Shown piece by piece: positions 3,275-28,293 of a stretch of 32,434 bases of DNA (position 1 is its first letter; every line of letters begins with the position of its first letter). The translations under genes were made by a program, and so were the position numbers. This DNA is from an uncultured Thiotrichales bacterium (lineage in GTDB: Bacteria > Pseudomonadota > Gammaproteobacteria > CAIRSR01): positions 1-32,434 of the forward strand of contig CAIJYR010000258.1 of NCBI GenBank assembly GCA_903824965.1, given 5' to 3'. Under the pieces are notes generated by a model. The model was not told where the DNA came from, did no database searches, and worked only from the letters and a program-made list of their open reading frames with translations.

Positions 3275-3548
3275 CTAGGCCAACAGTGCAACCGATAGAG
3301 GTTTTAGCAGACTTTTGCCGCGCAGTCGGGTGTTATGGACGAACTGGAAAAATCCCAGGTATCGCGGAAGTTTCTTCTGAGAGTTGCCCCCCGTGTGGAC
3401 GCAACCAAGAACGCAACAGCGACCAGAATCCCTCCCTGGTGTTGACGTGAACCTCATGGAAGCCATCGCCGTCTTCGTCACGCACGTACTCACCTCGGTT
3501 GTGGCAGACCGTCTTGTGTCCATACGCCTTACGAATTTTCGTAAGAAG
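3275..3548 (-). pseudogene. IS1595/ISXO2-type transposase, C-terminal remnant with frameshift
   Basis: Read on the minus strand, the upstream part has the transposase text GHKTVCHNRGEYVRDEDG and REGFWSLLRSWLRPHGG. The frame then breaks near 3380-3390. The continuation in another frame, KLPRYLGFFQFVHNTRLRGK, runs to a stop at 3275-3277. This is the C-terminal end of an ISXO2-like DDE transposase. The N-terminal two thirds are missing. The remnant overlaps the 3' end of the minus-strand CYTH-CHAD gene. No intact terminal repeats were identified. Confidence 0.72.
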
Positions 3549-5091
3549 ACTGCCAGAAACACGGCTGATTGCAGAAGGCTGCCCATGCGCTCTCAAAGAA
3601 TGCAAGGTTCTGTTCAATCATTGCTGCTTTCCACCCTAATACCAGGTGTCTGGCAGGCATGGGTATAGCAGGATACTTGGGGTCGGTACCTAACTCAGTA
3701 AGTAATCGGCTCGCAACGACTGCATCGTTGAGAACGCCCAGGATATCCTGCACCTTGGCAACCGAACGCAGAAAATCACGCACTGTGGATTCAGGGTACA
3801 GCGCGGCAAAAAACTCACCTGCGTAACGCAATCGTTTGCACAGAATCCGCAAACGGTGGCGTTCTTCTGCGGAGAGCTGTAGAAAACCATCGCACCCTTG
3901 TCGAACACGGGCATAGCGTTTTGCGAGAACACGCGCAGCGAATCCAATTGCCGGACGGTGTAGATCTCGCAGCAGTTTGGGAGTCAACAAATCGCGCCAG
4001 TCGCAGCGTGTCCGCCACAAGCCGATCCCAAGCAGCAGTCGTGTATACCGTGCCGATTCTACCGCAGCTCGTGCCCTCTGGTAAGCATTTGCACGAGCCT
4101 CTAGGGTCGCCAACCGGAGGCTCGACAAGATGTCTGGAAAGTGACGCTCTAAGGGGGACAATGTCTCCTCCAGAAAGACATCCCAATCCCGCGCAAAAGC
4201 CAATTCACTGCTCAACCAACGTACCTCTGTATTGACGAGATCGCTTGCTGTACGCGGTATCAGTGGCCGGAACAAACCGAGGCAAGAACGCAAACGTCGC
4301 GTTGCAACCCGCATCTGGTGTACGCCTTCCGTGTCCTCTCCCTGGCACACCACGGCAGCGTTGGTATGGAGGTGATCGAGACAGTACTGGACAATCGTTT
4401 GAAACGCTTCTTCTGCGCTTGCGTTTTGATCCAGGGAACAAACGCCAGCCTTTTGTGCAATCAGGGGCTTCGGAGGTGCCAACAAAGCATAGCCACGGGC
4501 AGCCTTGCTCGTGTTCTCCAGACGAATTGGCAATGCCTCTGCGAGTGCATGGGCAACCTCGTAGAGGCGTTGGGGCGAACCTGCTTTGAGTTCCAGTTCT
4601 AGTTCACAAATGGGTGTTGTACGTCCTAGACCAGAGACTTTACCGCGATCCACTGCCAATTCAATCAGGCTACTGTCCGCGAAAACGAGCAACCAGGTTG
4701 TGCGCCAAAAATCCGTGGTGAACAACGGTTGCAAGGTAGTGCGTAGCGCAGGGTCCACGAAGACCGCAGCAATCTCCGGCTCTGCGTCACACAGCCTGAG
4801 ATCCAGTTTGTGGTTCGGCAGTTCCCACTCCCACTCACCGCGACTGTGCATTCCCGCATATACGGTACCCGCTGTTTTGACGGTTTGCAGAAAGCGTTTC
4901 TCGACACGTCGTACCCGTAGTGCTACCCCAGCCGCCACAAGGCGTTGATCCGATGTGTCGTAGTACACATTGGTGAGGTGGCGGCGGATACCACGGCCTC
5001 GCGCATGTTGGCGCACGATGGGCAATCGCGCAACCCGCTGTAGCGCATCACACGCGAGAGACAATTTCAGTTCAGTTTCAGTGGCCATCAT
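3529..5091 (-). CDS. CYTH-CHAD protein, probable inorganic triphosphatase
   Basis: A 520-residue cytoplasmic protein. The N-terminal CYTH domain (about 1-200) opens with the ExExK signature as ETELK at residues 5-9, and has basic and acidic tunnel-type residues such as VALRVRRVEKRFLQTVKT and CELELELK. These residues bind triphosphate and divalent metal in the family. The C-terminal CHAD domain (about 225-505) is helical and rich in conserved His and Arg, for example VHQMRVATRRLRSCLGLF and RHRLRILCKRLRYAGEFFAALYP in part; CHAD domains bind polyphosphate. Family members such as E. coli YgiF hydrolyse inorganic triphosphate. The last residues (FWQSSYENS) are read from DNA that also belongs to the transposase remnant, so the original C-terminus may have been replaced. 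The gene is divergent from the DUF2939-like gene. Confidence 0.88.
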   Translation of the reverse strand: MMATETELKLSLACDALQRVARLPIVRQHARGRGIRRHLTNVYYDTSDQRLVAAGVALRVRRVEKRFLQTVKTAGTVYAGMHSRGEWEWELPNHKLDLRLCDAEPEIAAVFVDPALRTTLQPLFTTDFWRTTWLLVFADSSLIELAVDRGKVSGLGRTTPICELELELKAGSPQRLYEVAHALAEALPIRLENTSKAARGYALLAPPKPLIAQKAGVCSLDQNASAEEAFQTIVQYCLDHLHTNAAVVCQGEDTEGVHQMRVATRRLRSCLGLFRPLIPRTASDLVNTEVRWLSSELAFARDWDVFLEETLSPLERHFPDILSSLRLATLEARANAYQRARAAVESARYTRLLLGIGLWRTRCDWRDLLTPKLLRDLHRPAIGFAARVLAKRYARVRQGCDGFLQLSAEERHRLRILCKRLRYAGEFFAALYPESTVRDFLRSVAKVQDILGVLNDAVVASRLLTELGTDPKYPAIPMPARHLVLGWKAAMIEQNLAFFESAWAAFCNQPCFWQSSYENS

Positions 5092-5116
5092 CTATTCAAT
5101 ATGCCTGAAATGTGCG

Positions 5117-5145
5117 TGGACAGTGCTCAACTGGACAGGTACCAT
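5117..5145 (+). promoter_or_regulatory. Candidate sigma-70 promoter for the DUF2939-like gene
   Basis: TGGACA (5117-5122), a 17-base spacer and TACCAT (5140-5145) match the -35/-10 consensus at 5/6 and 4/6 positions. The expected transcription start near 5152 fits the ATG at 5176 and argues against the in-frame ATG at 5101. Found by eye only. Confidence 0.35.
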
Positions 5146-5175
5146 GAACCCATGCTGATATCTGTCGGAGAAAAC

Positions 5176-5640
5176 ATGCGTTATCTGATGCTGCCTTTGT
5201 TTGTGTTCACGCTGGCCTTTGGTTCCTGGCCCTACGTCCATGTGCTGCGCTTGGATCGTGCTCTGATCCAATACGATCACGCTACCTTGGGCACCTTGCT
5301 GAACCTTGACGCGATTCGTGTCGAGCGGAAGCGTGTCTTGGAACTACACGCAGTAGATACACACAACCCCGTGAGCCATGCGTTGCACCAGGTAGCCAGC
5401 GTACTTAGTGGCAACAGCGTTGACAACACTGTAACCCTAGATTGGGTGCGTGAAACGCTACGTCCGGTGCCTGCGCGACCCAACGAAGACTATCCTTCCA
5501 TTCTCCACTATGCCAGTTTTGCCTTCTTTGAAGACCCGCAGCACTTCGTTGTGCGCATCCGTGATCTAGGTGAAAATCCTATTCACCTTCGCTGGACACT
5601 CCGTGATTGGGTATGGCGGGTGACGGCCATTTACGACTAA
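5176..5640 (+). CDS. DUF2939-like small membrane-anchored protein
   Basis: A 154-residue protein with an N-terminal hydrophobic segment (about 3-18) that could be a signal peptide or anchor. A soluble domain follows, consisting of two similar stretches, one around YDHATLGTLLNLDAIRVERK and one around FEDPQHFVVRIRDLGENP. This resembles DUF2939 proteins, whose role is unknown. An in-frame ATG exists at 5101, but GGAG at 5167-5170 lies five bases before the ATG at 5176, which I prefer. The gene is convergent with the phosphoribulokinase-like gene, with only five bases between stop codons, and divergent from the CYTH-CHAD gene. The DUF assignment is by remembered resemblance, not search. Confidence 0.7.
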   Translation: MRYLMLPLFVFTLAFGSWPYVHVLRLDRALIQYDHATLGTLLNLDAIRVERKRVLELHAVDTHNPVSHALHQVASVLSGNSVDNTVTLDWVRETLRPVPARPNEDYPSILHYASFAFFEDPQHFVVRIRDLGENPIHLRWTLRDWVWRVTAIYD

Positions 5641-5645
5641 ACACG

Positions 5646-6602
5646 TTACCGTGCCGATCGTTTTCGATCCACCAATTCGTGGATCCGGGGAGCGCAGATC
5701 GTTTCTAGTGCTTGTCGGAGTTTATCCCCTGGGATGACGATGGTATTCAGACGTGACATAAAGGAGTTGTCGATGCGAGAAAGGAGATTGGGAAAGTCAA
5801 AGCGTTTTGGTTCTCGGAAACGCACCACGAAGAGACTTTCGTTCGCCGTTGGCACATCGGAGACGGTGAAGGGATTGGAGGTATCCACCGTAGGAACCCG
5901 TTGGAAATTGATGTCGGTCAAAGAGAACTGGGGGACAATGTAGCGGAGATAATCCGGCATGTGTTGTAAGAGACTGGAGACAACTGCTTCTTCGCTCGCA
6001 CCTCGGAGATTCACGTCACTGTGAATCTTTTGTATCCATTCCAGGTTGACAATGGGCACTACGCCGATTAGCAAATCCACCCAACGCGCCACATCGACGC
6101 CTGCATCGGACTGTGCCTCTAATTTCATTCGTTCGCGAATCACTCGTGGGTTATGAGAAGGCCCCATGGAGCGTCGGCTCCAAGAAGCCTCAATACACCC
6201 GCCATGAAGTCCTTCGTATAATAACAAATCAGCTTCTGCAGGAATCTCGCGCCAAGGCCCGAAAGTTCCACTGGGGACGTTTAGGCGTGCTGCACTCTCT
6301 GCGTCTTGTATATATTCCCTAATAAGGCCGGTACCGGTTCGGGAATACTCTCGAAACAGCCCCTCCAATCGGTCGAATAGATTGGCCTCGGGACCAAAAT
6401 GGCTTATAGGGGATCCCGCAGCAAGAGCTTCAGTGCGTTTTTGTTTCATCGTCATGCGGTCAAAACGACGAAAAGCGTTGCCTTCCACGTAAGCGGCCTG
6501 GATATCCAAACGCCGGAAAACCTCTTGGAATGCGTGTTTAACAGTGGTTGTACCCGCTCCGGAGGAGCCAGTCACGGCAATGATGGGGTGTTTTATGGAC
6601 AT
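5646..6602 (-). CDS. Phosphoribulokinase-family protein with altered active-site residues
   Basis: A 318-residue protein. The Walker A motif is VTGSSGAGTTT (residues 10-20). Other conserved blocks are SHFGPEANLF, LLLYEGLHGG, VDLLIGVVPIVNLEWIQKIH, INFQRVPTVDTSNPF and SFMSRLNTIVIPG. They place it in the proteobacterial phosphoribulokinase family, which phosphorylates ribulose 5-phosphate in the Calvin cycle. Two things are odd. The usual EGDSFHRYDR motif is EGNAFRRFDR, with Asn at 42 (normally the catalytic Asp) and Arg at 45 (normally His). In addition, about 28 extra residues lie between GLHGG and the VDLLIG block. I checked both codons in the DNA (AAC and CGT). It may be a non-canonical paralogue rather than the Calvin-cycle enzyme. 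A TATAAT (6615-6620, minus) lies only about 12 bases before the start codon. Confidence 0.85.
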   Translation of the reverse strand: MSIKHPIIAVTGSSGAGTTTVKHAFQEVFRRLDIQAAYVEGNAFRRFDRMTMKQKRTEALAAGSPISHFGPEANLFDRLEGLFREYSRTGTGLIREYIQDAESAARLNVPSGTFGPWREIPAEADLLLYEGLHGGCIEASWSRRSMGPSHNPRVIRERMKLEAQSDAGVDVARWVDLLIGVVPIVNLEWIQKIHSDVNLRGASEEAVVSSLLQHMPDYLRYIVPQFSLTDINFQRVPTVDTSNPFTVSDVPTANESLFVVRFREPKRFDFPNLLSRIDNSFMSRLNTIVIPGDKLRQALETICAPRIHELVDRKRSAR

Positions 6603-6748
6603 GCTTCGAGTCTCATTATAAAAAGAACAGGTTTGCTTCCTCTACTCCCTGTGCGTCCTTCAGGCAGGCGGCGCAGTATACAATGCCTGAACCCTACGGC
6701 CAAAGGGGGTGCTTTGTAAAGCCTCTCGACGATTCATGGAAACATAGC

Positions 6749-8323
6749 ATGCCGCCCTCCGAAAACCCATCGATCCCAACGTTTCCTGTGCGTGATGCTT
6801 CTGCACTGTATCGTGCGTCCCAAGTGCGTGCGCTCGATCGCCGCGCCATTGAGGAGTTCTGGATCCCAAGCGCCACACTCATGGCCCGTGCAGGCAAAAT
6901 GGCCTTCCAAACATTGCGCCGGTATTGGCCGAAAATCAACCGCATCGCCATCGTGAGTGGATTGGGCAACAATGCGGGGGATGGCTATGTAGTGGCACGT
7001 TTGGCACATGATGCAGGGTTCCGGGTGCGTGTCTTTCAGGTGGGAGAGGCATCGCGACTTCAAGGGGATGCCTTGCTTGCCTACCAAGCACTGTTGGCGA
7101 CGGGTACGACTCCCCTTCCCATGACCGTTGGGTGCCTGGAAGATGGGGGCGATGAAGTCATTGTCGATGCGCTGTTGGGGACAGGTCTAAAGGGAGAGGT
7201 ACGCCCTCCCTTTCGGGAGGCCATCGCGGAGATCAATCGCCGCGCTGTGCCGACTTTGGCTGTGGATGTCCCCTCGGGTCTGTGCACCGATACCGGATCG
7301 GTGCTGGGTGCGGCGGTGCGTGCAACCGTAACGGTGACTTTCGTTGGGAATAAGGTGGGATTGTTTACAGGAGAAGGGCCAGCCTACGCTGGCCATGTAG
7401 TCTTCTCTGACCTTGATATTCCGCCTGAGGTGTATCTCCCCCTAGTGCCTACTACACAGTGTTTGGATTTGAAAGCATTGCCCTATTGGTTGCCACAACG
7501 CCACAGGACAGCCCACAAGGGCCATTTTGGGCATGTCTTGGTCGTTGGAGGTGCCCCTGGCTATGCGGGGGCAGCACGCTTGGCGGCAGAGGCGGCGGCT
7601 CGTGTTGGGGCGGGGCTTGTGAGTCTTGCCACCCACCCTGATCATGCCGCGCAAATCGCTGCCATGCGTCCTGAGGTCATGGTACATGGCGTGACCAAGG
7701 GCGATGACCTTGCGCTTTTGCTAGAACGTGCGACGGTACTGGTGCTTGGCCCTGGGTTATCTTGTGGTGCGTGGGGTCTATCCCTCTGGAAAGCAGCCCT
7801 GGCTACGAAACGGCCCACCGTCTTGGATGCCGATGCACTGAACCTTTTGGCGGAACATCCCAAAGAGCGAGAACAGCGCGACTGGGTGCTGACCCCCCAT
7901 CCAGGAGAAGCGGCGCGATTGCTCGGTTGTTCGGTGGCTGACATTCAGGCGGATCGCTGTGCTACCCTGGGATCGCTGGTACAGCGTTATGGTGGAACAT
8001 GGGTACTGAAAGGCGCTGGTACATTGGTGGGGAGTGATCGATTGTCGGTACCTGGATTGTGTCCTGTTGCCAATCCGGGCATGGCGAGTGGTGGTATGGG
8101 AGATGTGTTGGCAGGGGTGCTAGGCGGCTTGATGGCCCAAGGGGTTCCTGCACAGGAAGCGGCTTGCCTGGGGGTGTGCCTCCATGCGGAGGCGGCAACC
8201 TGTGCCAGCATCGCGGGGGAACGGGGATTACTGGCGAGTGATTTGATGCCGCACCTGCGTACCTTGGTGAATCCGTCGCCATCCGTGCGTAAGAAGAAGA
8301 AGAGTAATAAGCAGCATAAATGA
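6749..8323 (+). CDS. nnr: Bifunctional NAD(P)H-hydrate epimerase / ADP-dependent NAD(P)HX dehydratase
   Basis: A 524-residue cytoplasmic metabolite-repair enzyme. The N-terminal YjeF-type epimerase domain (about 10-215) contains SGLGNNAGDGYVVAR and VDALLGTGLKGEVRPPF and interconverts R- and S-NAD(P)HX. The C-terminal ribokinase-like dehydratase domain (about 225-510) has HKGHFGHVLVVGGAPGYAGA, VLTPHPGEAARLLG, WVLKGAGTLV and the catalytic loop ASGGMGDVLAGVLGG, and converts S-NAD(P)HX to NAD(P)H. An in-frame start at 6683 would add 22 residues. I prefer the ATG at 6749 because GGAAA lies a few bases upstream and the conserved sequence begins soon after. The C-terminus ends in an unusual lysine-rich tail. 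The gene is divergent from the phosphoribulokinase-like gene. Confidence 0.93.
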   Translation: MPPSENPSIPTFPVRDASALYRASQVRALDRRAIEEFWIPSATLMARAGKMAFQTLRRYWPKINRIAIVSGLGNNAGDGYVVARLAHDAGFRVRVFQVGEASRLQGDALLAYQALLATGTTPLPMTVGCLEDGGDEVIVDALLGTGLKGEVRPPFREAIAEINRRAVPTLAVDVPSGLCTDTGSVLGAAVRATVTVTFVGNKVGLFTGEGPAYAGHVVFSDLDIPPEVYLPLVPTTQCLDLKALPYWLPQRHRTAHKGHFGHVLVVGGAPGYAGAARLAAEAAARVGAGLVSLATHPDHAAQIAAMRPEVMVHGVTKGDDLALLLERATVLVLGPGLSCGAWGLSLWKAALATKRPTVLDADALNLLAEHPKEREQRDWVLTPHPGEAARLLGCSVADIQADRCATLGSLVQRYGGTWVLKGAGTLVGSDRLSVPGLCPVANPGMASGGMGDVLAGVLGGLMAQGVPAQEAACLGVCLHAEAATCASIAGERGLLASDLMPHLRTLVNPSPSVRKKKKSNKQHK

Positions 8324-18405: not shown

Positions 18406-18449
18406 AGGGGCGTGAGAGAGGGGTGCGAAGCGACTCAACGGAGGGCAAG

Positions 18450-18905
18450 GTGGTCAACGAGCGTGAGGACAGCGGGTTGGATGTGTCGGTGCACGAAGAT
18501 GTCGGGCTGGACGGTCTCAAAGTGATGGTGATCGACGACAGCAAGACCATCCGCCGCACCGCTGAGATTTTGCTCAAGAACGCCGGTTGTGAGGTTATCG
18601 TCGCAGGCGATGGCTTCGAAGCCTTGTCCAAGATCGCAGATCACCGCCCAGACATCATCTTCATCGACATCATGATGCCGCGCCTTGATGGCTACCAGAC
18701 TACAGCACTCATTAAGCGGAACAGCCAATTTAGCAGTACCCCCGTCATCATGCTCTCCAGCAAAGACGGTCTCTTTGACCGCGCACGGGGTCGCGTCGTA
18801 GGCTGCGAGGAATACCTTACAAAGCCCTTCACCAAAGAGGATCTGCTCGGTGCCATCCATCGATGTGTGATCGGTGCCGCCAAGCCTCCGAGCACGGGAG
18901 CCTAA
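18450..18905 (+). CDS. pilG: Twitching motility response regulator PilG
   Basis: A 151-residue single receiver-domain protein of the Pil-Chp system. It closely follows Pseudomonas PilG: LKVMVIDDSKTIRRTAEILL, the phospho-acceptor block IIFIDIMMPRLDGYQT, VIMLSSKDGLFDRARGRVVG and YLTKPFTKEDLLGAI with the conserved Lys. PilG is phosphorylated by ChpA and promotes pilus extension. The N-terminal extension of about 25 residues is not conserved. The GTG at 18450 is preferred over a GTG at 18423 because ACGGAGGG lies four bases before it. It is the first gene of the cluster, and pilH follows two bases after its stop. Confidence 0.94.
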   Translation: MVNEREDSGLDVSVHEDVGLDGLKVMVIDDSKTIRRTAEILLKNAGCEVIVAGDGFEALSKIADHRPDIIFIDIMMPRLDGYQTTALIKRNSQFSSTPVIMLSSKDGLFDRARGRVVGCEEYLTKPFTKEDLLGAIHRCVIGAAKPPSTGA

Positions 18906-18907
18906 CG

Positions 18908-19273
18908 ATGGCCCATATCCTCATTGTTGATGATTCTCCGACCGAGGTCTATGTCCTGAAAACGATGCTTGAACGACACGGGCACCGTATCTCGACGGCT
19001 GACAACGGCACCGATGCCGTGACCTTGGCCCACCAAGAACACCCCGATGTAATCCTGATGGACGTTGTAATGCCGGGCATGAGTGGTTTTCAAGCCACCC
19101 GTTTGATCACCAAAGATCCTGCCTGCGCTTCGATACCCATCTTCGTGATCACCAGCAAAAGCCAAGAAGCTGACAAAGTATGGGCGCTTCGTCAAGGCGC
19201 ACGTGACTACCTGATCAAGCCGGTGTTAGAGGCCGACTTGATCGCAAAACTCCGAACCGTCCTGGGCGGTTAG
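18908..19273 (+). CDS. pilH: Twitching motility response regulator PilH
   Basis: A 121-residue single receiver domain. It follows Pseudomonas PilH closely: MAHILIVDDSPTEVYVLKTM, VILMDVVMPGMSGFQATRL with the phospho-acceptor Asp, and LRQGARDYLIKPVLEADL with the conserved Lys. PilH acts opposite to PilG, as a phosphate sink or promoter of pilus retraction. The ATG at 18908 is two bases after the pilG stop, so translation is probably coupled. Confidence 0.94.
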   Translation: MAHILIVDDSPTEVYVLKTMLERHGHRISTADNGTDAVTLAHQEHPDVILMDVVMPGMSGFQATRLITKDPACASIPIFVITSKSQEADKVWALRQGARDYLIKPVLEADLIAKLRTVLGG

Positions 19274-19290
19274 CCGAAAGCGAGTGCACT

Positions 19291-19827
19291 GTGGATCGTT
19301 CCAACCCCTTTGCTTTGCTCTACAACATTGAAGTTCGCGCCCGAGCACGCGTTCGTGGTTTGCCGCGTCGTAGCGAAGGCAAACCCACCTGGTCGGGCAT
19401 TGTCTTTCGCCTGGGCGATCAGGAGCTGGCCGCACCCCTCCTCGAAGTCAACGAAGTGTTGGCATTCCCTGCGGTCTCACGGGTACCTGGTACCAAACCA
19501 TGGGTGAGAGGCTTAGCCAACGTTCGCGGCAACCTGCTCCCTGTCATGGATCTCCGCACCCTCCTAGAAGGCACTCCAGTGGTGCGTGGTCGCAAAAACA
19601 GGGTGTTGGTCATCAAACACAAAGAACTCTTCGCGGGTCTCCTGGTAGACGAAGTGATCGGTCTTCGGCATTTTTTACAAGAGGAAAGCACTCCACAACC
19701 TCCTGTGGCGGAAACGTCTCTCGCACCTTACCTCCAAGGCGGGTTTGAACGGAATGGGCGGTATACGCCCGTGTTCGGACTCTACGCACTGGCGGAAAGC
19801 ACAGCATTCATGCAAGTCGCAACATAA
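19291..19827 (+). CDS. pilI: CheW-like adaptor PilI
   Basis: A 178-residue CheW-domain adaptor that links the receptor PilJ to the kinase ChpA. Typical CheW elements are visible: GIVFRLGDQELAAPLLEVNE, then RVPGTKPWVRGLANVRGNLL and PVMDLRTLL, and later FAGLLVDEVIGLRHF. The start is the GTG at 19291, 17 bases after the pilH stop. Position and order match the Pseudomonas cluster. Confidence 0.92.
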   Translation: MDRSNPFALLYNIEVRARARVRGLPRRSEGKPTWSGIVFRLGDQELAAPLLEVNEVLAFPAVSRVPGTKPWVRGLANVRGNLLPVMDLRTLLEGTPVVRGRKNRVLVIKHKELFAGLLVDEVIGLRHFLQEESTPQPPVAETSLAPYLQGGFERNGRYTPVFGLYALAESTAFMQVAT

Positions 19828-19882
19828 ACAGCATCCACATCCTTGATCCTTGGCAGACGTTTTAAACGATTTTGGGGAAGAT

Positions 19883-21949
19883 ATGAACGAAACCGTTACA
19901 CAGACGAAGAAACTTGGTGCAGGGGTTGGTCAATCACTGGTACTCGCGCTGCTCGTGGTTGTGCTGCTCTTGATGGGATTTACCTTTTATTACGTCTCCG
20001 TGTACGAAGGCTATGACGCACGGTATCGCAACGCAGCAACGGATGAACAGTTGCTCACGCAGCGTTTCGACAGAGCAGCACAAGGCGTGGCCCTCAATGA
20101 GGCTACAGCCTTTGCGATGCTCAAACAAAGCCGTATGCGTTTTGAACAAAATCTCACTCTCCTCGAACAAGGTGACAGTAACACGGGTTTGCCGCCAAGC
20201 CCTGCCATGGCCGATCCAGCCTTCAAGTCCCTGAAGGAACATTGGTCTGCGGTGCGCGGAAACATCGACCTGGTACTATCGGGCGTACCAGCACTTCAAG
20301 AGATGCGTGGCGCGGCCACACGACTCCAAGATCAGACAATCCCTGAGGCGATTCGGCAGACAGACGAGTTGATAGCCATTCTGGTGGAAAAAAACATCCC
20401 GCCCGTTGTGATCAACCTCATGGGGCGCGAGCGTGTACTGGCACAACGGATGGCGAATCGCATCGATCGAATCGTACTGTTGGGTGGCACTGCTGCCGCC
20501 TCCGCAACGGACGAGATGGCACGTGATCTTACGTTGTTCGTGCGCATCCTGGACGGTCTGCAATCGGGGGATGAGTTGCTTCAAATCAAACCCCTTCAAG
20601 ACCCTGAGGGCCTTGCCAAATTGCCCCCTCTGATCGCGGAGGCCCGTGTCCTCAAGGATCAAATCGATGCCTTATTGGCAAAAAAAGATACCTTATTCCA
20701 GGTACAAGCGGCCATTGCTCGGATTATCGATCAAAGCGATCGCTTGATGGGCGATTGCACCCAACTCTTGGGGATCTATGACCGCCTGGGAGAGACGCGT
20801 ACCCTTTCACGCACCACAGGGTATCTGTTGGCGAGTTTTGCCCTTGTTTTGTTGATCTGGTTGGGGATAGGTTTGCTGCGGGATGTACGCCATCGTCAAT
20901 GGGAGAGTGACAAACAACAGCAAGCAGCAGCCGAAGCCACTCAACGCAACCAAGAGGCGATTTTGCGTCTGCTTGATGAGATTACCAACCTTGCCGACGG
21001 TGATCTTACTGTACGTGCGACCGTGACCACGGATTTTACGGGGGCCATCGCGGATTCCATCAATTTTGCGGTGGATGCCTTGCGTGATCTGGTCGCTGCA
21101 ATCAATACCACCACCGTACAAGTATCGGGTGCCGCCCAAGAGACACAGGCGACCGCAATGCACCTCACCGATGCGAGCGAACACCAGGCCCAAGAGATTC
21201 AGCGTGCAAGCACGACCATTGATACCATGGCGAGCGCCATGGGACAAATGGCGATCAAGGCTGACGATGCGGTGGTGGTCGCCCAAAACGCAGTGCGCAC
21301 TGCGAAGCGCGGTGCTGAGGCCGTGCGCGATACCATCAAAGGCATGGGAGACATTCGAGACCAGATCCAAGAGACCTCCAAACGGATTAAGCGGCTTGGG
21401 GAATCTTCCCAAGAGATCGGCGAGATTCTCGCACTCATCAACGACATTGCTGACCAAACGAACATTCTGGCACTGAACGCAGCAATCCAGGCAGCGATGG
21501 CAGGTGAGGCAGGGCGGGGATTTGCAGTCGTCGCGGACGAAGTACAACGTCTCGCGGAACGGGCAAGCAACGCAACCAAACAGATCGATGCCTTGGTACG
21601 CACGATTCAGAGTGACACCAACGAGACGGTCATTTCCATGGAAGAAACCACAACCGATGTGGTACGGGGTGCCAAACTCGCCGAAGATGCCGGAGGTGCA
21701 CTCTCTGAAATCGACAATGTGTCTGCGCAACTCGCTGAGCTTATCCACCACATTTCACAGTCTGCACAGAAACAAGTCCGCAGTGCCGTGCATATTTCTG
21801 AGACGATGAATGTCATCCAAGAGATCACCACGCAAACCTCCTCCGGTACCCAGGATACGGCTGCATCCATTGGTCATCTTGCGGAGCTCTCTAACGATCT
21901 GAGACGTTCCGTGGCTGGCTTTAAGTTACCAGCGCCCGGAAAGGGATAA
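19883..21949 (+). CDS. pilJ: Methyl-accepting chemotaxis protein PilJ
   Basis: A 688-residue inner-membrane receptor, close to the 682 residues of Pseudomonas PilJ. Membrane helices lie at about 18-40 and 312-333. Between them is a periplasmic PilJ-type double helical region. A HAMP-like segment includes ILRLLDEITNLADGDLTVRA, and the cytoplasmic signalling domain contains the hairpin tip DQTNILALNAAIQAAMAGEA and GRGFAVVADEVQRLAERA. The ATG at 19883 is preferred over an upstream TTG at 19850 because GGGGAAG lies three bases before it. Pseudomonas has the methyltransferase gene pilK after pilJ, but here chpA follows directly (21 bp). Confidence 0.95.
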   Translation: MNETVTQTKKLGAGVGQSLVLALLVVVLLLMGFTFYYVSVYEGYDARYRNAATDEQLLTQRFDRAAQGVALNEATAFAMLKQSRMRFEQNLTLLEQGDSNTGLPPSPAMADPAFKSLKEHWSAVRGNIDLVLSGVPALQEMRGAATRLQDQTIPEAIRQTDELIAILVEKNIPPVVINLMGRERVLAQRMANRIDRIVLLGGTAAASATDEMARDLTLFVRILDGLQSGDELLQIKPLQDPEGLAKLPPLIAEARVLKDQIDALLAKKDTLFQVQAAIARIIDQSDRLMGDCTQLLGIYDRLGETRTLSRTTGYLLASFALVLLIWLGIGLLRDVRHRQWESDKQQQAAAEATQRNQEAILRLLDEITNLADGDLTVRATVTTDFTGAIADSINFAVDALRDLVAAINTTTVQVSGAAQETQATAMHLTDASEHQAQEIQRASTTIDTMASAMGQMAIKADDAVVVAQNAVRTAKRGAEAVRDTIKGMGDIRDQIQETSKRIKRLGESSQEIGEILALINDIADQTNILALNAAIQAAMAGEAGRGFAVVADEVQRLAERASNATKQIDALVRTIQSDTNETVISMEETTTDVVRGAKLAEDAGGALSEIDNVSAQLAELIHHISQSAQKQVRSAVHISETMNVIQEITTQTSSGTQDTAASIGHLAELSNDLRRSVAGFKLPAPGKG

Positions 21950-21970
21950 ACAAGAGGGGCAGCACCGCCC

Positions 21971-24900
21971 ATGTCTACCAATAATCTTGCGAAAAACGCC
22001 ATGGAGCCCGGGCCTCTGTCCTGGGTCAAAGGGGAGATTGATCACACCCTCGGCCTTGCCAGTGCCGCGCTCGAACAGTACGCAGAGGATCCAACAGATC
22101 CGAGTGCGCGTGAAGCGTTGCAAAGCTGTCTCGGGCACCTCCATGAAGTCACCGGCACCCTGCGGATGGTCGAGGTACAGGGGGGGATTCTCCTTGCGGA
22201 GGAAATGGAACAACTGCTGCTGGCCCTGGTCGGCGGACATGTCGAGTCTAGCGCAGCAGAAGTATTGGTGCGTGCCCTCCTCCCCCTCCCAGACTACCTC
22301 GAACGCTTACAAAACGGTGCCCGAGATTTTCCAATCGTTTTGCTCCCGATCATCAACGAACTGCGTGCAGCGCGTCATGAAGCAGCGTTGGCGGAGGATT
22401 TGTTTTTCTTTCCTGATCTTTCGGTGGTGCCTGCGTTTGATCTCCCGCCCGTAGCCCTGGATGGTGGGGAGAGACAAAACATCGCACGACGGGCGCGTTC
22501 TCTGTTTCAGTCGGGCTTGGTGGCATGGTCACGCAACCCCGCAGATACAGAAGCTGTGCATCGCTTACGGCAAGCGATGGAGCAGCTATATACCGTAACC
22601 ACCCATCCCGATGCCATGCGTCTTTGGTGGGCAGGCGCGGGCTTGGTCGAGGCGGTGCAGGACAATGGGTTGGAACCGGCCGTTGTTCGACCCTTGTTTG
22701 GTAAGGTAGAGCGCCAGACGAAGCGTTACCTGGATGCGGGTGATCCAGGCGTTAGCGCCAATCCACCGTGGTCATTGACACGACAAATCCTCTACCACGT
22801 TGCCTGTGCACGATCGCATGGCCCGCTGGTTTCTGCGCTGCGCTCATCCTTTTGCCTCCAAGACGCTTTGCCAACGGAATCCGATCTGGCAGCCGCCAGG
22901 GGCAGCTTGCGAGGAACCAATCGTGCGCTCATGGAAACCGTTTCTTCCGCTTTGCGTGAAGATCTCACGAAGGTTATGGAGACCCTGGATCTGTTCGTGC
23001 GTCGGCGCGATCAAAACGTTGCAGCGTTGCGCCCGATGCTCGAACAAGTGCATCAGATCGCAGGGACGCTCGCGATCATTGACCAGGAAGTCGCACGCAC
23101 CGAGTTGCACTCGGTTGCTGAAATCCTTGCAACCCTGATCAACCCGGCACCGGGTACCTCTGCACTCACTGCCAACGCGATCACAGCCATGCTTCTTCCT
23201 TTGGCGGATCGCTTTGTGCACGTCGAATCGATCCTGGCAGGACTTGGAGGGGCATCGTCAGCGGGGGAAGGATCACCCAATTTTGCCATGGGTGATCGGC
23301 AGTTGCATCAAGCGGTGTTCCAGCAGGCAATTGACAGTCTGAACCGTGCCAAAGCAGCCACTCTGGTTTTTGCACAAACCCCCACCGCACGTGATGCGCA
23401 CGCCTGGGAAACCCTACAAACGGCACTGCATGAGGTTTCGGGTGGATTGGGAATGCTGGGCTTAGAGCGTCCTTCTCAACTTGCCTTGGCGTGTTTGCAT
23501 GGGTTGCACGAACTCCCTGAATCGATTTCGGGTGCGTGGTTGGATCGTTTGGCAGATGCCATCGCCGCCTTGGAGTTGTATTTAGAGGAACAGATCCAGA
23601 ATCGATCAGGGGAGTCTTTTCTGGTACAGGGAGAGTCTGCCATCGCTGCTTGGGCGTCGCTTGCGGGTGCCACCCCTGCACTGCCGAGTGCATCGGTTCC
23701 ACCACTGGTACTGTTATCATTGGAAGAAGAACCGCCGCTCGTCTTAGAGGGCTTTGAAGATACGTCGCAGCTCTTGTTCCAATCGCTGCAGGAAGAAGAT
23801 CCGCCGCTCGTCTTAGACGGCTTTGAAGAGACGTCGCAGCTCTTGTTCCAATCGCTGCAGGAAGAAGATCCGCCGCTCGTCTTAGACGGCTTCGAAGCGG
23901 AGGAACCAGAGGAACAACCTCTGTCTTCTGTTCCGATGCCTCAGCAGAAATCGGGATCGGATGTCGATCCTGAAATGGTCGAGGTGTTCACGGAAGAAGC
24001 CACAGAAGAAATGGCAACCCTCGATCAGCATTTGCCACTCCTACGGGTTGGGTTGTTCCCGCAGGAGGGTGGACAGTGTATCGTGGTGAGCCACACACCC
24101 CAAGACTCACTGCTGACGGTGCGCCGATCGTTCCATACACTGAAGGGCAGTGGTCGTATGGTGGGTGCTATCCGGCTGGGTGAATTGGCGTGGGCCGTGG
24201 AAAATTTGCTCAACCGTGCGATAGACCACACGGTAAGAATCTCCCCCTCGCTCTTGCATGTCGTAGAGGATGCACGCCTTGTACTGCCGACTTTACTCGA
24301 AGATTTTCAAACAGGTCGTAACACCGCACAAGGGGTAGAAGAAATCGCAGAACAGGCTTGGCGGCTCGCACACGCTGGGCCTCGCCTCACCACGCCCTCT
24401 GTTCCAGTACCCACCCCCACGCCAGACGAACCCGGTATCAAACCGAGTGCCGCCGTAGCGGATCGAGCACGTGCGGACATCGAATCGAATGTCTTCGCTC
24501 TGTTTGAGGCAGAAACAAAAAAACATCTTGCTACGGCAGAAGAAGCCATCGCAGTCTGTCGAGACAATGGCGGGGGGTTCTCGAACCCTGAGGGATTGCT
24601 GCGTGCTCTTCATACCCTCCAGGGGAGTGCTAGGGTTCTCCATACCATCGAGGGCAGCGCCAAAACGGTAGGAGTGGGTGGGATCGGCTATATCGCACAA
24701 GCGTTAGAACAGTATGTGCGCACTTGTCTTGCGACCGATATAGCCCTTGACGAGCAGGGTCTTCAGTGGGTGGAAGCGGGGGTAGGGTTTATCCGCGTGT
24801 GGCTCTCTGCCCTGACCGATCAGAATACTGTCCCCAGCATCGATGATTGGCTGTCACAAATCGAAGCGGCTACCCATACCATGGTCTCGAACCATGTGAG

Positions 24901-27811
24901 CCAATCGCCTCCCGCCGCCGAGATAGACGAAGCCCTAGAGATGTTCTTGGAAGAGGCCACAGATGCGCTCAAAAACGCTGAACAGATCCTAGCAGAATGG
25001 CAGTCAGACACCTCCAACGTAGCGGTTTTGCAGCCATTGCAATCGCTCCTGAAAACAGTGGCGAGCAATGCTGACCTGGTTGGCATTCCCGCGATTGCGG
25101 CGTTGTGTGGGACGCTGAACGACCTACTGGAACGGATCGCGGTGGACGCACAAATCTGCCACGATGATACCGTACCTCTCTGTATTGGGGCGATGGAGCA
25201 GTTGTGGATCATGCTGGATGATGTGCACGATCATCAATCCGCAACACCGCAGGATGAGCTTTGCCATGCCATTGCAGAGCTACTGCGAACGCAGCCGATC
25301 AGTCCGTTGATCAATGCAGCGGTTTTGGCAGATCCCCCCTCCCAACCCGCCCTTGTCACCCCTGCACCTCCCAGCTTCACGCAAACCAGCACGCCCCCCC
25401 CAGACACAGAACGGGGAACAGAACGGGGTGATCTGATGGAGATGTTCCTGGGAGAGGCTGAGGATCTGATGGGCACTATGGATGGTCTGCTGCGCCAACT
25501 GTCCGTTGCCCCCAACCATGTGGCGTTGGTCGCTGAACTGCGCCGTACCCTGCATACTCTCAAGGGTGGCGCACGCATGGTGGGCATTCAAGCCATTGCC
25601 GACTTGTCGCACGCCCTAGAGTCGATGATCGACAGTGTGGTGGATGGTCACTTACCTGCCACCCAACGGTTGTTTGATCTTGTGCAAACGGCTGGCGATC
25701 ACCTCTCTGCGATGATCGATCGTGTACGTGCAGGACAACCGGTTGAGCCCGCGACGGTTCTCCACCACCACATCGAGAATTTGGTCACGCAGCAATTGTC
25801 GTTGCGACCCGCAGAGACAACAATACCCTCAGCCTCCCCCCCACCACCGAGCGACGCCGAGGGATCTGGCGCTCGTGCTGTGTCCAATGGTGTGGACAAC
25901 GAACCAGGCGATCGGCGAACCGCACCACGCATTGTGTCAGAACAGGTGCGGGTGGCGGCTGATCTCCTCAACCAGTTGGTCAATTATGCGGCGGAAGTGA
26001 GCATTACACGATCCCGTGTGGATCAACAAATGGCAGGACAACGCCACAGCCTACAGGAAATGGCACAAACAGTGTCCCGTTTGCGCGATCAATGGCGTCG
26101 CTTGGAAATGGAGACCGAGTTTCGGATCCTGCACCTTCATCCTGAGGTAGGCGGAGCGGACTTTGACCCCCTTGAACTAGAACGCTACTCAAACCTGCAA
26201 CAACTCTCCCGAAGTCTCATGGAGAGCGTATCCGATCTGGCGAGTCTTCACGGAATGCTGAGCGCAACGACACTGGATGCTGAAATGCTCCTCTTACAGC
26301 AGTCACGCATCACCAAAGAGCTACAAGAAGGCTTGATGCGGACACGCACCGTACCCTTTGCGGGCGTTGCCCAACGTCTGCGGCGGATTGTCCGACAGAC
26401 GGCACAGGAATTGAACCTTCAGGCTGAGTTGCGCTTAGTGGGTGCCGAGATTGAGTTGGATCGCACCGTACTCGATCGGATGCTGGCTCCCCTGGAGCAT
26501 ATGCTGCGCAATTCCATCAGCCACGGTTTGGAACCACCTGAGGTACGTCGTGCGGCTGGCAAACCAGAAACAGGCCTGATTACGATCCATTTGCGTCGTG
26601 ATGGCCAGGAAATTGTCATCTCTGCGGGGGATGATGGTCGCGGTTTGGACATCCCTGCGATCCGACGTAAGGCCAAAGAACGGGGTCTGCTAGCACACGA
26701 TGCTCTCCTCGCTGACAAAGAAGTCATGCAGTTCATCTTAGAACCAGGCTTTTCTACGGCAAGCCAAGTGACCCAAATCGCGGGACGGGGTGTCGGCATG
26801 GACGTTGTACGCAACGAAGTGCTTGTGCTCGGTGGCACACTCTCCATCGATTCGGAGGTGTCGCGTGGCACCACCTTCACCGTGCGCCTACCCTTGACGC
26901 TTGCGGTCAGCAAGTCTTTGTTGGTCAATGTTCAGGGTGACCTTTTTGCCATTCCGCTGGTCGCTATTCTGGCGGTGCTGCAACTGTCTCACGACGAGGC
27001 CAATCGTCTCTACGAAGATCCACGTCCCGTGTTGATGCGGGGTGGCGTAGAGTATACCTTTGCCCATGCTGCGACGCTCTTGGAGGCACCGCTGCCTACC
27101 CGTCCTTTGGCGGTGGGGGAAAAATTGCCCGTGTTGTTGTTTGGCATTGGGGAGATCCACACGGCACTGGCGGTGGATGGACTGCTCGGTGCGCGTGAGA
27201 TTGTGGTGAAATCCGTCGGCCCCCAACTGGGTCGGGTGCGCGAGATTGCCGGTGCGACCATTCTGGGCGATGGTCGGGTCGCGATCATCCTAGATATGGC
27301 CGCACTCCTCCGAAAGAGTGTTGCACTGTATGGATCAGTTCTGCCAACAACGGATCGCCTGACCCAAAAAGGCTTGGAAGAATCGGCCCCCTCGGTGTTA
27401 GTGGTGGATGATTCCATTACGGTTCGCAGGGTTACAGCCCGACTCCTAGAACGCCACCACATGACCGTGTTCACCGCACGAGACGGCGTGGATGCCGTGG
27501 CATTGCTCCAAAAACAAATGCCTGATCTCATCCTGATGGACATTGAAATGCCACGCATGGATGGCTACGAATTGGCCACCTATATTCGAAGCGATCCAAG
27601 ACTCCAGCACATTCCGATTATCATGATCACGTCGCGTACCGGCCCCAAACACCGTAAACGGGCGGCAGAAGTCGGGGTGACGCACTATCTTGGAAAACCC
27701 TACCAAGAAACAGAATTATTGGAAGCGATCCATCGCTTACGGTTGCGTGCGCCGACTTTGTCTACGTTGCGTACAGCATCCCTCCCCCATGCCCTCGGAC
27801 GCCTTCACTGA
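21971..27811 (+). CDS. chpA: Hybrid chemosensory histidine kinase ChpA/PilL
   Basis: A 1946-residue kinase of the Pil-Chp system. The N-terminal ~500 residues hold FimL-like helical modules with histidines at 58, 361 and 487. Canonical Hpt motifs follow: FHTLKGSGRMVG (His722), LHTLQGSA (His881), LHTIEGSA (His891) and LHTLKGGARMVG (His1195). A further Hpt-like block near 1028 has lost its histidine. A dimerisation region starts near 1325. The ATPase has an N box with Asn1514 (MLRNSISHGLE), DDGRGLD at 1554-1560 and AGRGVGMDVV. A CheW-like domain spans about 1640-1790, and a receiver (about 1808-1925) has Asp1857 in LMDIEMPRMDGYE. It autophosphorylates and passes phosphate to PilG and PilH. Odd features are a tandem H-box at 881/891 and three 23-residue repeats near 585-643. 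Its stop overlaps the chpC start. Confidence 0.95.
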   Translation: MSTNNLAKNAMEPGPLSWVKGEIDHTLGLASAALEQYAEDPTDPSAREALQSCLGHLHEVTGTLRMVEVQGGILLAEEMEQLLLALVGGHVESSAAEVLVRALLPLPDYLERLQNGARDFPIVLLPIINELRAARHEAALAEDLFFFPDLSVVPAFDLPPVALDGGERQNIARRARSLFQSGLVAWSRNPADTEAVHRLRQAMEQLYTVTTHPDAMRLWWAGAGLVEAVQDNGLEPAVVRPLFGKVERQTKRYLDAGDPGVSANPPWSLTRQILYHVACARSHGPLVSALRSSFCLQDALPTESDLAAARGSLRGTNRALMETVSSALREDLTKVMETLDLFVRRRDQNVAALRPMLEQVHQIAGTLAIIDQEVARTELHSVAEILATLINPAPGTSALTANAITAMLLPLADRFVHVESILAGLGGASSAGEGSPNFAMGDRQLHQAVFQQAIDSLNRAKAATLVFAQTPTARDAHAWETLQTALHEVSGGLGMLGLERPSQLALACLHGLHELPESISGAWLDRLADAIAALELYLEEQIQNRSGESFLVQGESAIAAWASLAGATPALPSASVPPLVLLSLEEEPPLVLEGFEDTSQLLFQSLQEEDPPLVLDGFEETSQLLFQSLQEEDPPLVLDGFEAEEPEEQPLSSVPMPQQKSGSDVDPEMVEVFTEEATEEMATLDQHLPLLRVGLFPQEGGQCIVVSHTPQDSLLTVRRSFHTLKGSGRMVGAIRLGELAWAVENLLNRAIDHTVRISPSLLHVVEDARLVLPTLLEDFQTGRNTAQGVEEIAEQAWRLAHAGPRLTTPSVPVPTPTPDEPGIKPSAAVADRARADIESNVFALFEAETKKHLATAEEAIAVCRDNGGGFSNPEGLLRALHTLQGSARVLHTIEGSAKTVGVGGIGYIAQALEQYVRTCLATDIALDEQGLQWVEAGVGFIRVWLSALTDQNTVPSIDDWLSQIEAATHTMVSNHVSQSPPAAEIDEALEMFLEEATDALKNAEQILAEWQSDTSNVAVLQPLQSLLKTVASNADLVGIPAIAALCGTLNDLLERIAVDAQICHDDTVPLCIGAMEQLWIMLDDVHDHQSATPQDELCHAIAELLRTQPISPLINAAVLADPPSQPALVTPAPPSFTQTSTPPPDTERGTERGDLMEMFLGEAEDLMGTMDGLLRQLSVAPNHVALVAELRRTLHTLKGGARMVGIQAIADLSHALESMIDSVVDGHLPATQRLFDLVQTAGDHLSAMIDRVRAGQPVEPATVLHHHIENLVTQQLSLRPAETTIPSASPPPPSDAEGSGARAVSNGVDNEPGDRRTAPRIVSEQVRVAADLLNQLVNYAAEVSITRSRVDQQMAGQRHSLQEMAQTVSRLRDQWRRLEMETEFRILHLHPEVGGADFDPLELERYSNLQQLSRSLMESVSDLASLHGMLSATTLDAEMLLLQQSRITKELQEGLMRTRTVPFAGVAQRLRRIVRQTAQELNLQAELRLVGAEIELDRTVLDRMLAPLEHMLRNSISHGLEPPEVRRAAGKPETGLITIHLRRDGQEIVISAGDDGRGLDIPAIRRKAKERGLLAHDALLADKEVMQFILEPGFSTASQVTQIAGRGVGMDVVRNEVLVLGGTLSIDSEVSRGTTFTVRLPLTLAVSKSLLVNVQGDLFAIPLVAILAVLQLSHDEANRLYEDPRPVLMRGGVEYTFAHAATLLEAPLPTRPLAVGEKLPVLLFGIGEIHTALAVDGLLGAREIVVKSVGPQLGRVREIAGATILGDGRVAIILDMAALLRKSVALYGSVLPTTDRLTQKGLEESAPSVLVVDDSITVRRVTARLLERHHMTVFTARDGVDAVALLQKQMPDLILMDIEMPRMDGYELATYIRSDPRLQHIPIIMITSRTGPKHRKRAAEVGVTHYLGKPYQETELLEAIHRLRLRAPTLSTLRTASLPHALGRLH
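23723..23899 (+). repeat. 69-bp tandem repeat inside chpA (2.5 copies)
   Basis: Units at 23723-23791 and 23792-23860, plus a partial unit at 23861-23899. Each begins gaagaaga and includes ccgccgctcgtcttaga; the units are almost identical in DNA. They encode an acidic 23-residue linker unit, EEDPPLVLDGFEETSQLLFQ plus SLQ, between the N-terminal FimL-like part and the first canonical Hpt. The near-identity points to recent expansion. Confidence 0.95.
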
Positions 27812-28293
27812 TGAAATCTCGTGCTGCGATACGTAGTTTGTTTCTTCCTGTGTCGGGGAGCGTGCCTTTGTTGCTGCCGAGTGCGGTTCTTGCGGAGGTT
27901 ATCAGTTATCGAGCACCGGAATCGCTGTACAGCAGCACTCCTTGGTTGCTCGGATGGATGGAGTGGCGGGGAATCTCTGTGCCTCTCATCTCTTTTGAGA
28001 TGTTGTGTGGCCATGCAGATCGGGGCGCAATCGCTGGCACCCGGATTGCCATCTTGAATGGGATCACGGGTCATCCCAAATTGCCTTTTCTTGGGTTGCG
28101 TATCCAGGGGATTCCGCGTCTTACGCTGGTGCGAGAAGAAAGCCTGGTGCTACAGGAGAACGTATCTGATACGAGCCTGTACGCAGCGGTGGATCTCTCC
28201 GATCAACCTGCGCTCATCCCTGACCTCGAAGTCCTTGAGGGGTTGCTTGTCCCATATCTTCGTGACGATGTGACTGCGTCAAGTGAGACATAG
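27811..28293 (+). CDS. chpC: CheW-like protein ChpC
   Basis: A 160-residue CheW-domain adaptor. It resembles Pseudomonas ChpC: FLPVSGSVPLLLPSAVLAEV, the motif YRAPES, then WLLGWMEWRGISVPLISFEM. A conserved C-terminal part has GLRIQGIPRLTLVREESL. The ATG at 27811 overlaps the chpA stop (tgATGa type), so the two are probably translationally coupled. In Pseudomonas chpB, a methylesterase gene, lies between chpA and chpC; it is absent here. Confidence 0.88.
   Translation: MKSRAAIRSLFLPVSGSVPLLLPSAVLAEVISYRAPESLYSSTPWLLGWMEWRGISVPLISFEMLCGHADRGAIAGTRIAILNGITGHPKLPFLGLRIQGIPRLTLVREESLVLQENVSDTSLYAAVDLSDQPALIPDLEVLEGLLVPYLRDDVTASSET

Follow-up and report, generated by a model that had tools for sequence, protein, structure and literature searches.

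Phosphoribulokinase (PRK) and RuBisCO are used together as genome markers for the Calvin cycle. In Arabidopsis PRK, Asp58 and His106 constitute the Asp-His dyad that forms the catalytic base (PMC9978339). In the enzyme of R. sphaeroides, His45 and Lys165 bind Ru5P and Arg168 binds ATP, and in archaeal PRK the phosphate site for Ru5P is bound by an Arg, a Tyr and a His (PMC5241800). A profile alignment to solved structures placed identical residues of archaeal PRK at D42, H45, R49, Y98, H100, E131, K165, R168, D169 and R173, and profile alignment likewise suggests that the plant dyad corresponds to D42 and H100. Mutation of Asp42 in R. sphaeroides PRK is reported (Miziorko group, 1994) to cripple the enzyme by several orders of magnitude, and the older literature of that group assigns R31, R234 and R257 to the NADH/AMP site.

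The altered active site of a PRK-like protein

The window analyzed here, a stretch of 32,434 nucleotides from an uncultured Thiotrichales bacterium, carries a gene for a PRK-like paralogue, whose features are collected in Table 1.

Table 1. Position and strand of the PRK-like paralogue, its key sites and its immediate surroundings in the window (Rs, R. sphaeroides PRK)
Feature	Position	Strand	Remarks
PRK-like paralogue, 318 aa	5646..6602	-	Model annotation phosphoribulokinase; NCBIfam NF011997, Pfam PRK; dN/dS far below 1
Codons 42-49, NAFRRFDR	6456..6479	-	Asn42 for catalytic Asp, Arg45 for His, Arg49 retained
P-loop region TGSSGAGTTT, residues 11-20	6543..6572	-	Intact
Residue 99, Gln (Rs His100, which pairs with the catalytic Asp)	6306..6308	-	
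26-residue insert, residues 141-166, WSRRSMGPSHNPRVIRERMKLEAQSD	6105..6182	-	In 0/68 canonical PRKs; insert here in 27/27 family members
Residue 195, Ser (Rs Arg168, ATP/lid)	6018..6020	-	
Intergenic gap separating the starts of the paralogue and of the divergently oriented NAD(P)H-hydrate repair gene (6683-8323)	6603..6682	.	
DUF2939 gene, convergent with the paralogue	5101..5640	+	Synteny with the paralogue in G001 only

Translation of the gene gave VEGNAFRRFDR in place of the canonical pattern EGD-x-FHR, in agreement with the motif that the first-pass annotation had singled out. Thus, codon 42 is AAC (6479-6477), encoding Asn, and codon 45 is CGT (6470-6468), encoding Arg, and these two residues align to Asp42 and His45 of R. 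sphaeroides PRK (PDB 1A7J). Both positions had been described as conserved in proteobacterial PRKs, and indeed D42 and H45 were each found in 68/68 canonical sequences, as were R49, H100, E131, K165, R168, D169 and R173. The window protein also departs from the canonical invariants at H100 (Gln99), R168 (Ser195) and R187 (His214); Lys165, Asp169 and the Walker-B Glu131 are all present. The first-pass annotation had described the ATP-binding loop and the remainder of the fold as intact, which was correct for the P-loop and the fold, but not for the chain as a whole, in which 15 canonical-invariant sites are changed and 26 residues, which that annotation did not mention, are inserted.

The loss of catalytic residues could point to a decaying duplicate or a sequencing error. 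However, the frame is open and the same residues occur in two further independent genomes, G001 and G003, which belong to the same genus and family and read VEGNAFRRYDR and VDGNAFRRFDR, respectively, so the Asn42 and Arg45 codons are not read errors. Pairwise pN/pS among family members ranged from 0.13 to 0.20, and the canonical PRK, compared across those genome pairs, gave 0.07 to 0.11; the paralogue protein evolves approximately twice as fast as the canonical one, yet far from neutrally. This purifying selection bears out the view that the gene is not decaying, and decay or error is barely credible as an explanation.

An AlphaFold2 model built from 51 sequences reached a mean pLDDT of 89 and a TM score of 0.93 to 1A7J (normalized by 1A7J), with an rmsd of 2.3. 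In this model the insert has middling confidence (pLDDT 66-76) and a predicted helix at residues 152-163. It was used instead of an earlier model from 10 sequences, which was weak (pLDDT 78.5, with part of the insert below 50).

The window protein matches Pfam PRK and has the full-length PRK/uridine-kinase fold with a P-loop. NF011997, the NCBIfam equivalog model for PRK, accepts it with 417 bits against a cut-off of 362, and automated annotation will therefore call the paralogue a phosphoribulokinase. This acceptance, the shared fold, the 49-61% identity among family proteins and canonical PRKs and the occurrence of the paralogue with RuBisCO would all suit an enzyme that is still a phosphoribulokinase, as a slow or differently regulated isozyme. 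Such an isozyme is nevertheless highly improbable, given that the window protein is without both dyad residues, His45 and Arg168, each of which is present in 68/68 canonical PRKs and conserved in archaeal PRK, and given the reported crippling of Asp42 mutants. Bacterial-type PRKs are defined by Asp42, the dyad histidine His100 and the Ru5P ligand His45; all three are absent from the window protein, and for this reason it should not be classed with the PRKs.

A separate insert-bearing family

Of the 80 relatives nearest in GTDB, nine were found to have an insert following the Walker-B motif YEGLHGG and the other 71 were not; His45 is missing from all nine. A profile search with the insert region gave strong matches in 18 of 369 class genomes, belonging to ten families, and a phylum-wide sample of 398 genomes added one further carrier (G569), being otherwise negative save for the window genome. 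The family as defined here rests on the 27 sequences sampled. With the insert columns removed, all 27 proteins formed one clade (FastTree SH support 1.0; bootstrap 60/60). The phylogeny of PRK homologues that had been proposed as a check therefore places the N42/R45 protein in a monophyletic family apart from the canonical PRKs. The window protein has the features of this family, namely, an insert of roughly 20 to 29 aa with an invariant W and R, replacement of His45 by Arg or Leu, and a place in the separate clade. New family-wide invariants lie almost all within the insert (W141, R144 and G168 in 27/27 members, R158 in 26/27, and H150 and P152 in 25/27); C303 is also newly invariant.

Our best explanation is that the family arose once, from a bacterial-type (octameric) PRK, in autotrophic Gammaproteobacteria. 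A plasmid collection yielded 133 PRK records, every one below 60% identity, and nothing related at the DNA level to the window region; the 15 plasmid records listed were about as long as canonical PRK. No published account of such a PRK paralogue was found in the open-licence literature.

The two halves of the active site fare differently in the family. At the dyad and Ru5P sites, H45 is found in none of the 27 members, D42 in 14 (N in 8, E in 3 and S in 2) and H100 in 5, with Asp42 and His100 both present in five members. R49 is kept in 17, R168 in 18 and R173 in only 3, Lys taking its place in 16. For its part, D169 is present in all 27, E131 and K165 in 24 each, and R31, R234 and R257 in 25, 21 and 26, respectively; the P-loop is retained family-wide save for Thr18 to Leu in three members. 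Mapping onto the tree indicated a single loss of H45, at the family's base, and no change of D169. At least five changes were counted for D42, and an acid at position 42 is therefore not required. Among canonical-invariant positions, losses were enriched at catalytic or substrate sites (6/11 versus 14/93; Fisher p = 0.006), the list of functional sites being drawn in part from the cited papers.

Two variants within the family were also observed. The sub-branch formed by L024, L050 and L108 has Leu for Thr18 in the P-loop (GAGLST), and its insert is shorter, reading HFP instead of HNP. In the member at L005:6001-6978, the Walker-B motif is YKGLHGG, with Lys for Glu131, which is another hint that catalysis may be dispensable.

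Since the ATP-side catalytic residues are so well retained, the main rival to the reading preferred below is a catalytically active kinase that acts on some other phosphoryl acceptor, in which the ATP half would be kept and the Ru5P half (His45, Arg49, His100 and Arg173) re-tooled, the basic, aromatic insert (W-x-x-R ... H-x-P ... R) serving as a new acceptor pocket or lid. The counts for D169, K165 and E131, the P-loop, the conservative replacement of R173 by Lys, the new invariants directly after the Walker-B strand and the purifying selection are all consistent with it. On the other hand, the position of the base varies among D, N, E and S over those five or more changes, and N or S cannot act as a base; nor is there a metabolic gene neighbourhood hinting at a substrate. 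Taking both sides together, we regard this kinase as possible but doubtful.

Genomic context and the Calvin cycle

The source genome (3.22 Mb in 265 contigs, 98.4% complete) was searched for a second, canonical prk and for RuBisCO, as the first-pass annotation had advised, and both were found. The canonical gene lies at C150:23466-24089, with the motif EGDSFHRYER and all key residues, and is the only PRK-family gene besides the paralogue; there is one RuBisCO large subunit, on C75. The earlier caution that the paralogue is weakened as evidence for a Calvin cycle is right for the gene taken alone. For the organism this weakness does not matter, because with a canonical PRK and RuBisCO in the same genome the Calvin cycle does not rest on the paralogue.

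The same coexistence was seen in other carriers. RuBisCO was present in 14/14 class-sample carriers at least 90% complete, versus 166/314 genomes of the class sample (hypergeometric p = 1e-4, a value that overstates independence, since the carriers are related genomes and not independent events). Canonical PRK was likewise found in 14/14 good-quality class-sample carriers and in 17/19 carriers overall, the two without it being 72% and 79% complete; presence calls for RuBisCO and PRK depend on genome completeness.

The paralogue appears to be a single-gene unit, with no same-strand gene adjoining, and the DUF2939 gene is not considered part of its system. A scan for promoters and terminators around it gave nothing above chance. 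The window and the same-genus genome G001 share the DUF2939, CYTH-CHAD, NAD(P)H-hydrate repair and UDP-GlcNAc 2-epimerase genes near the paralogue, and the rest differ. Beyond this synteny, no conserved operon or neighbourhood was found for the family, including one with prk or cbb genes. Three larger neighbourhood clusters (1 to 3) around the paralogue were rejected, as they seem to consist of spurious frames overlying prk itself.

The absence of an operon shared with cbb genes and the variation of neighbours between genera would be in accordance with an unrelated binding role, as a scaffold, chaperone or nucleotide sensor that is not aimed at PRK or the Calvin cycle. The confinement of the paralogue to RuBisCO-bearing genomes in the good-quality sample argues against it, and we consider it improbable.

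Several other genes of the region were recorded. The CYTH-CHAD fusion protein of the window (3529-5091) is encoded near the paralogue in the same genus only. Genes resembling Ser/Thr kinases and PP2C phosphatases lie within several kilobases of the paralogue at L007, L008, L009, L024, L143, L147 and L153; these recurrences come mostly from close relatives, and kinship explains part of them. A type IV pilus chemosensory cluster occupies 18423-28293 of the window and comprises two response regulators, a CheW, a PilJ-type MCP, a 1946-aa Hpt/HATPase/CheW/receiver kinase and a CheW. The gene for this kinase contains a tandem repeat of 69 bases, a multiple of three, at 23722-23897.

A possible regulatory role and comparison with known systems

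The genomes compared establish a separate family with residue losses, an insert, constraint and coexistence with canonical PRK and RuBisCO. The initial suggestion that this may be a paralogue acting in regulation or on a different substrate gains support from this comparative evidence (the separate family, the insert, the canonical prk in the genome and the purifying selection). Our preferred reading, to which we give a rough probability of 0.45, is that the window protein may be a regulatory pseudo-PRK. It fits best because the base position varies, the ATP and allosteric-type sites and the insert are conserved, and a canonical PRK coexists with it. On this view the family has preserved the PRK fold together with the ATP/Mg site and the majority of the allosteric-type arginines, but has lost the Ru5P and catalytic-base site and gained a conserved insert of about 26 residues. 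Such a pseudo-PRK would bind ATP, and perhaps NADH/AMP effectors too, with no formation of RuBP, and would tune the canonical PRK or the Calvin cycle, the simplest route being co-assembly with the canonical PRK via the inherited oligomer surface or the insert.

Some observations count against the pseudo-PRK reading, namely, that about half of the family still has Asp42, five members having His100 as well, that there is no conserved prk/cbb operon, and that the genomes in which RuBisCO accompanies the paralogue are related to one another. In addition, the retention of the P-loop, the Walker-B Glu, Lys165 and Asp169 would fit a working phosphotransferase or ATPase, which argues against a pure scaffold. 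A more specific version, in which the pseudo-PRK subunit would mix with or cap the canonical PRK and so make Calvin-cycle flux responsive to ATP and NADH in autotrophic Gammaproteobacteria, we hold to be unlikely. If true, the subunit would be a regulatory PRK paralogue, and its role could be likened to the one that CP12/GAPDH has in cyanobacteria and plants.

Calvin-cycle calls are inflated and confused by a family that passes a curated PRK model while missing the residues of the dyad and of the Ru5P site, and each carrier shows two "PRK" genes. If the paralogue is regulatory, it would represent a new layer of control on carbon fixation in autotrophic bacteria; if it is an enzyme, it would be a kinase, as yet unassigned, with a link to autotrophy.

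The closest described system is the bacterial-type PRK (CbbP; R. sphaeroides, 1A7J; NF011997), to which the window protein is similar in its full-length fold (TM 0.93, 46% identity), its P-loop, Walker-B Glu, Lys165 and Asp169 and its R31, R234 and R257. It differs in being without Asp42, His45, His100 and Arg168, in the 26-residue insert after Walker B and in its separate clade. With the canonical PRK of its own genome (C150, locus L001) it shares 155 of 290 aligned residues; unlike in the window protein, the catalytic and Ru5P residues of L001 are all present and the insert is absent, and L001 lies on another contig, adjoining MutY-like and PilM-like genes. Uridine-cytidine kinase, pantothenate kinase and glycerate kinase, of the PRK/uridine kinase superfamily, have the same P-loop kinase fold (Foldseek matches), but with 12-17% identity to the window protein their kinship is far more distant than that of PRK. 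Finally, the form IV RuBisCO-like proteins are comparable by analogy only, as paralogues of a Calvin-cycle enzyme minus the canonical active-site residues; they differ in having no homology to the window protein, and some of them have other known reactions.
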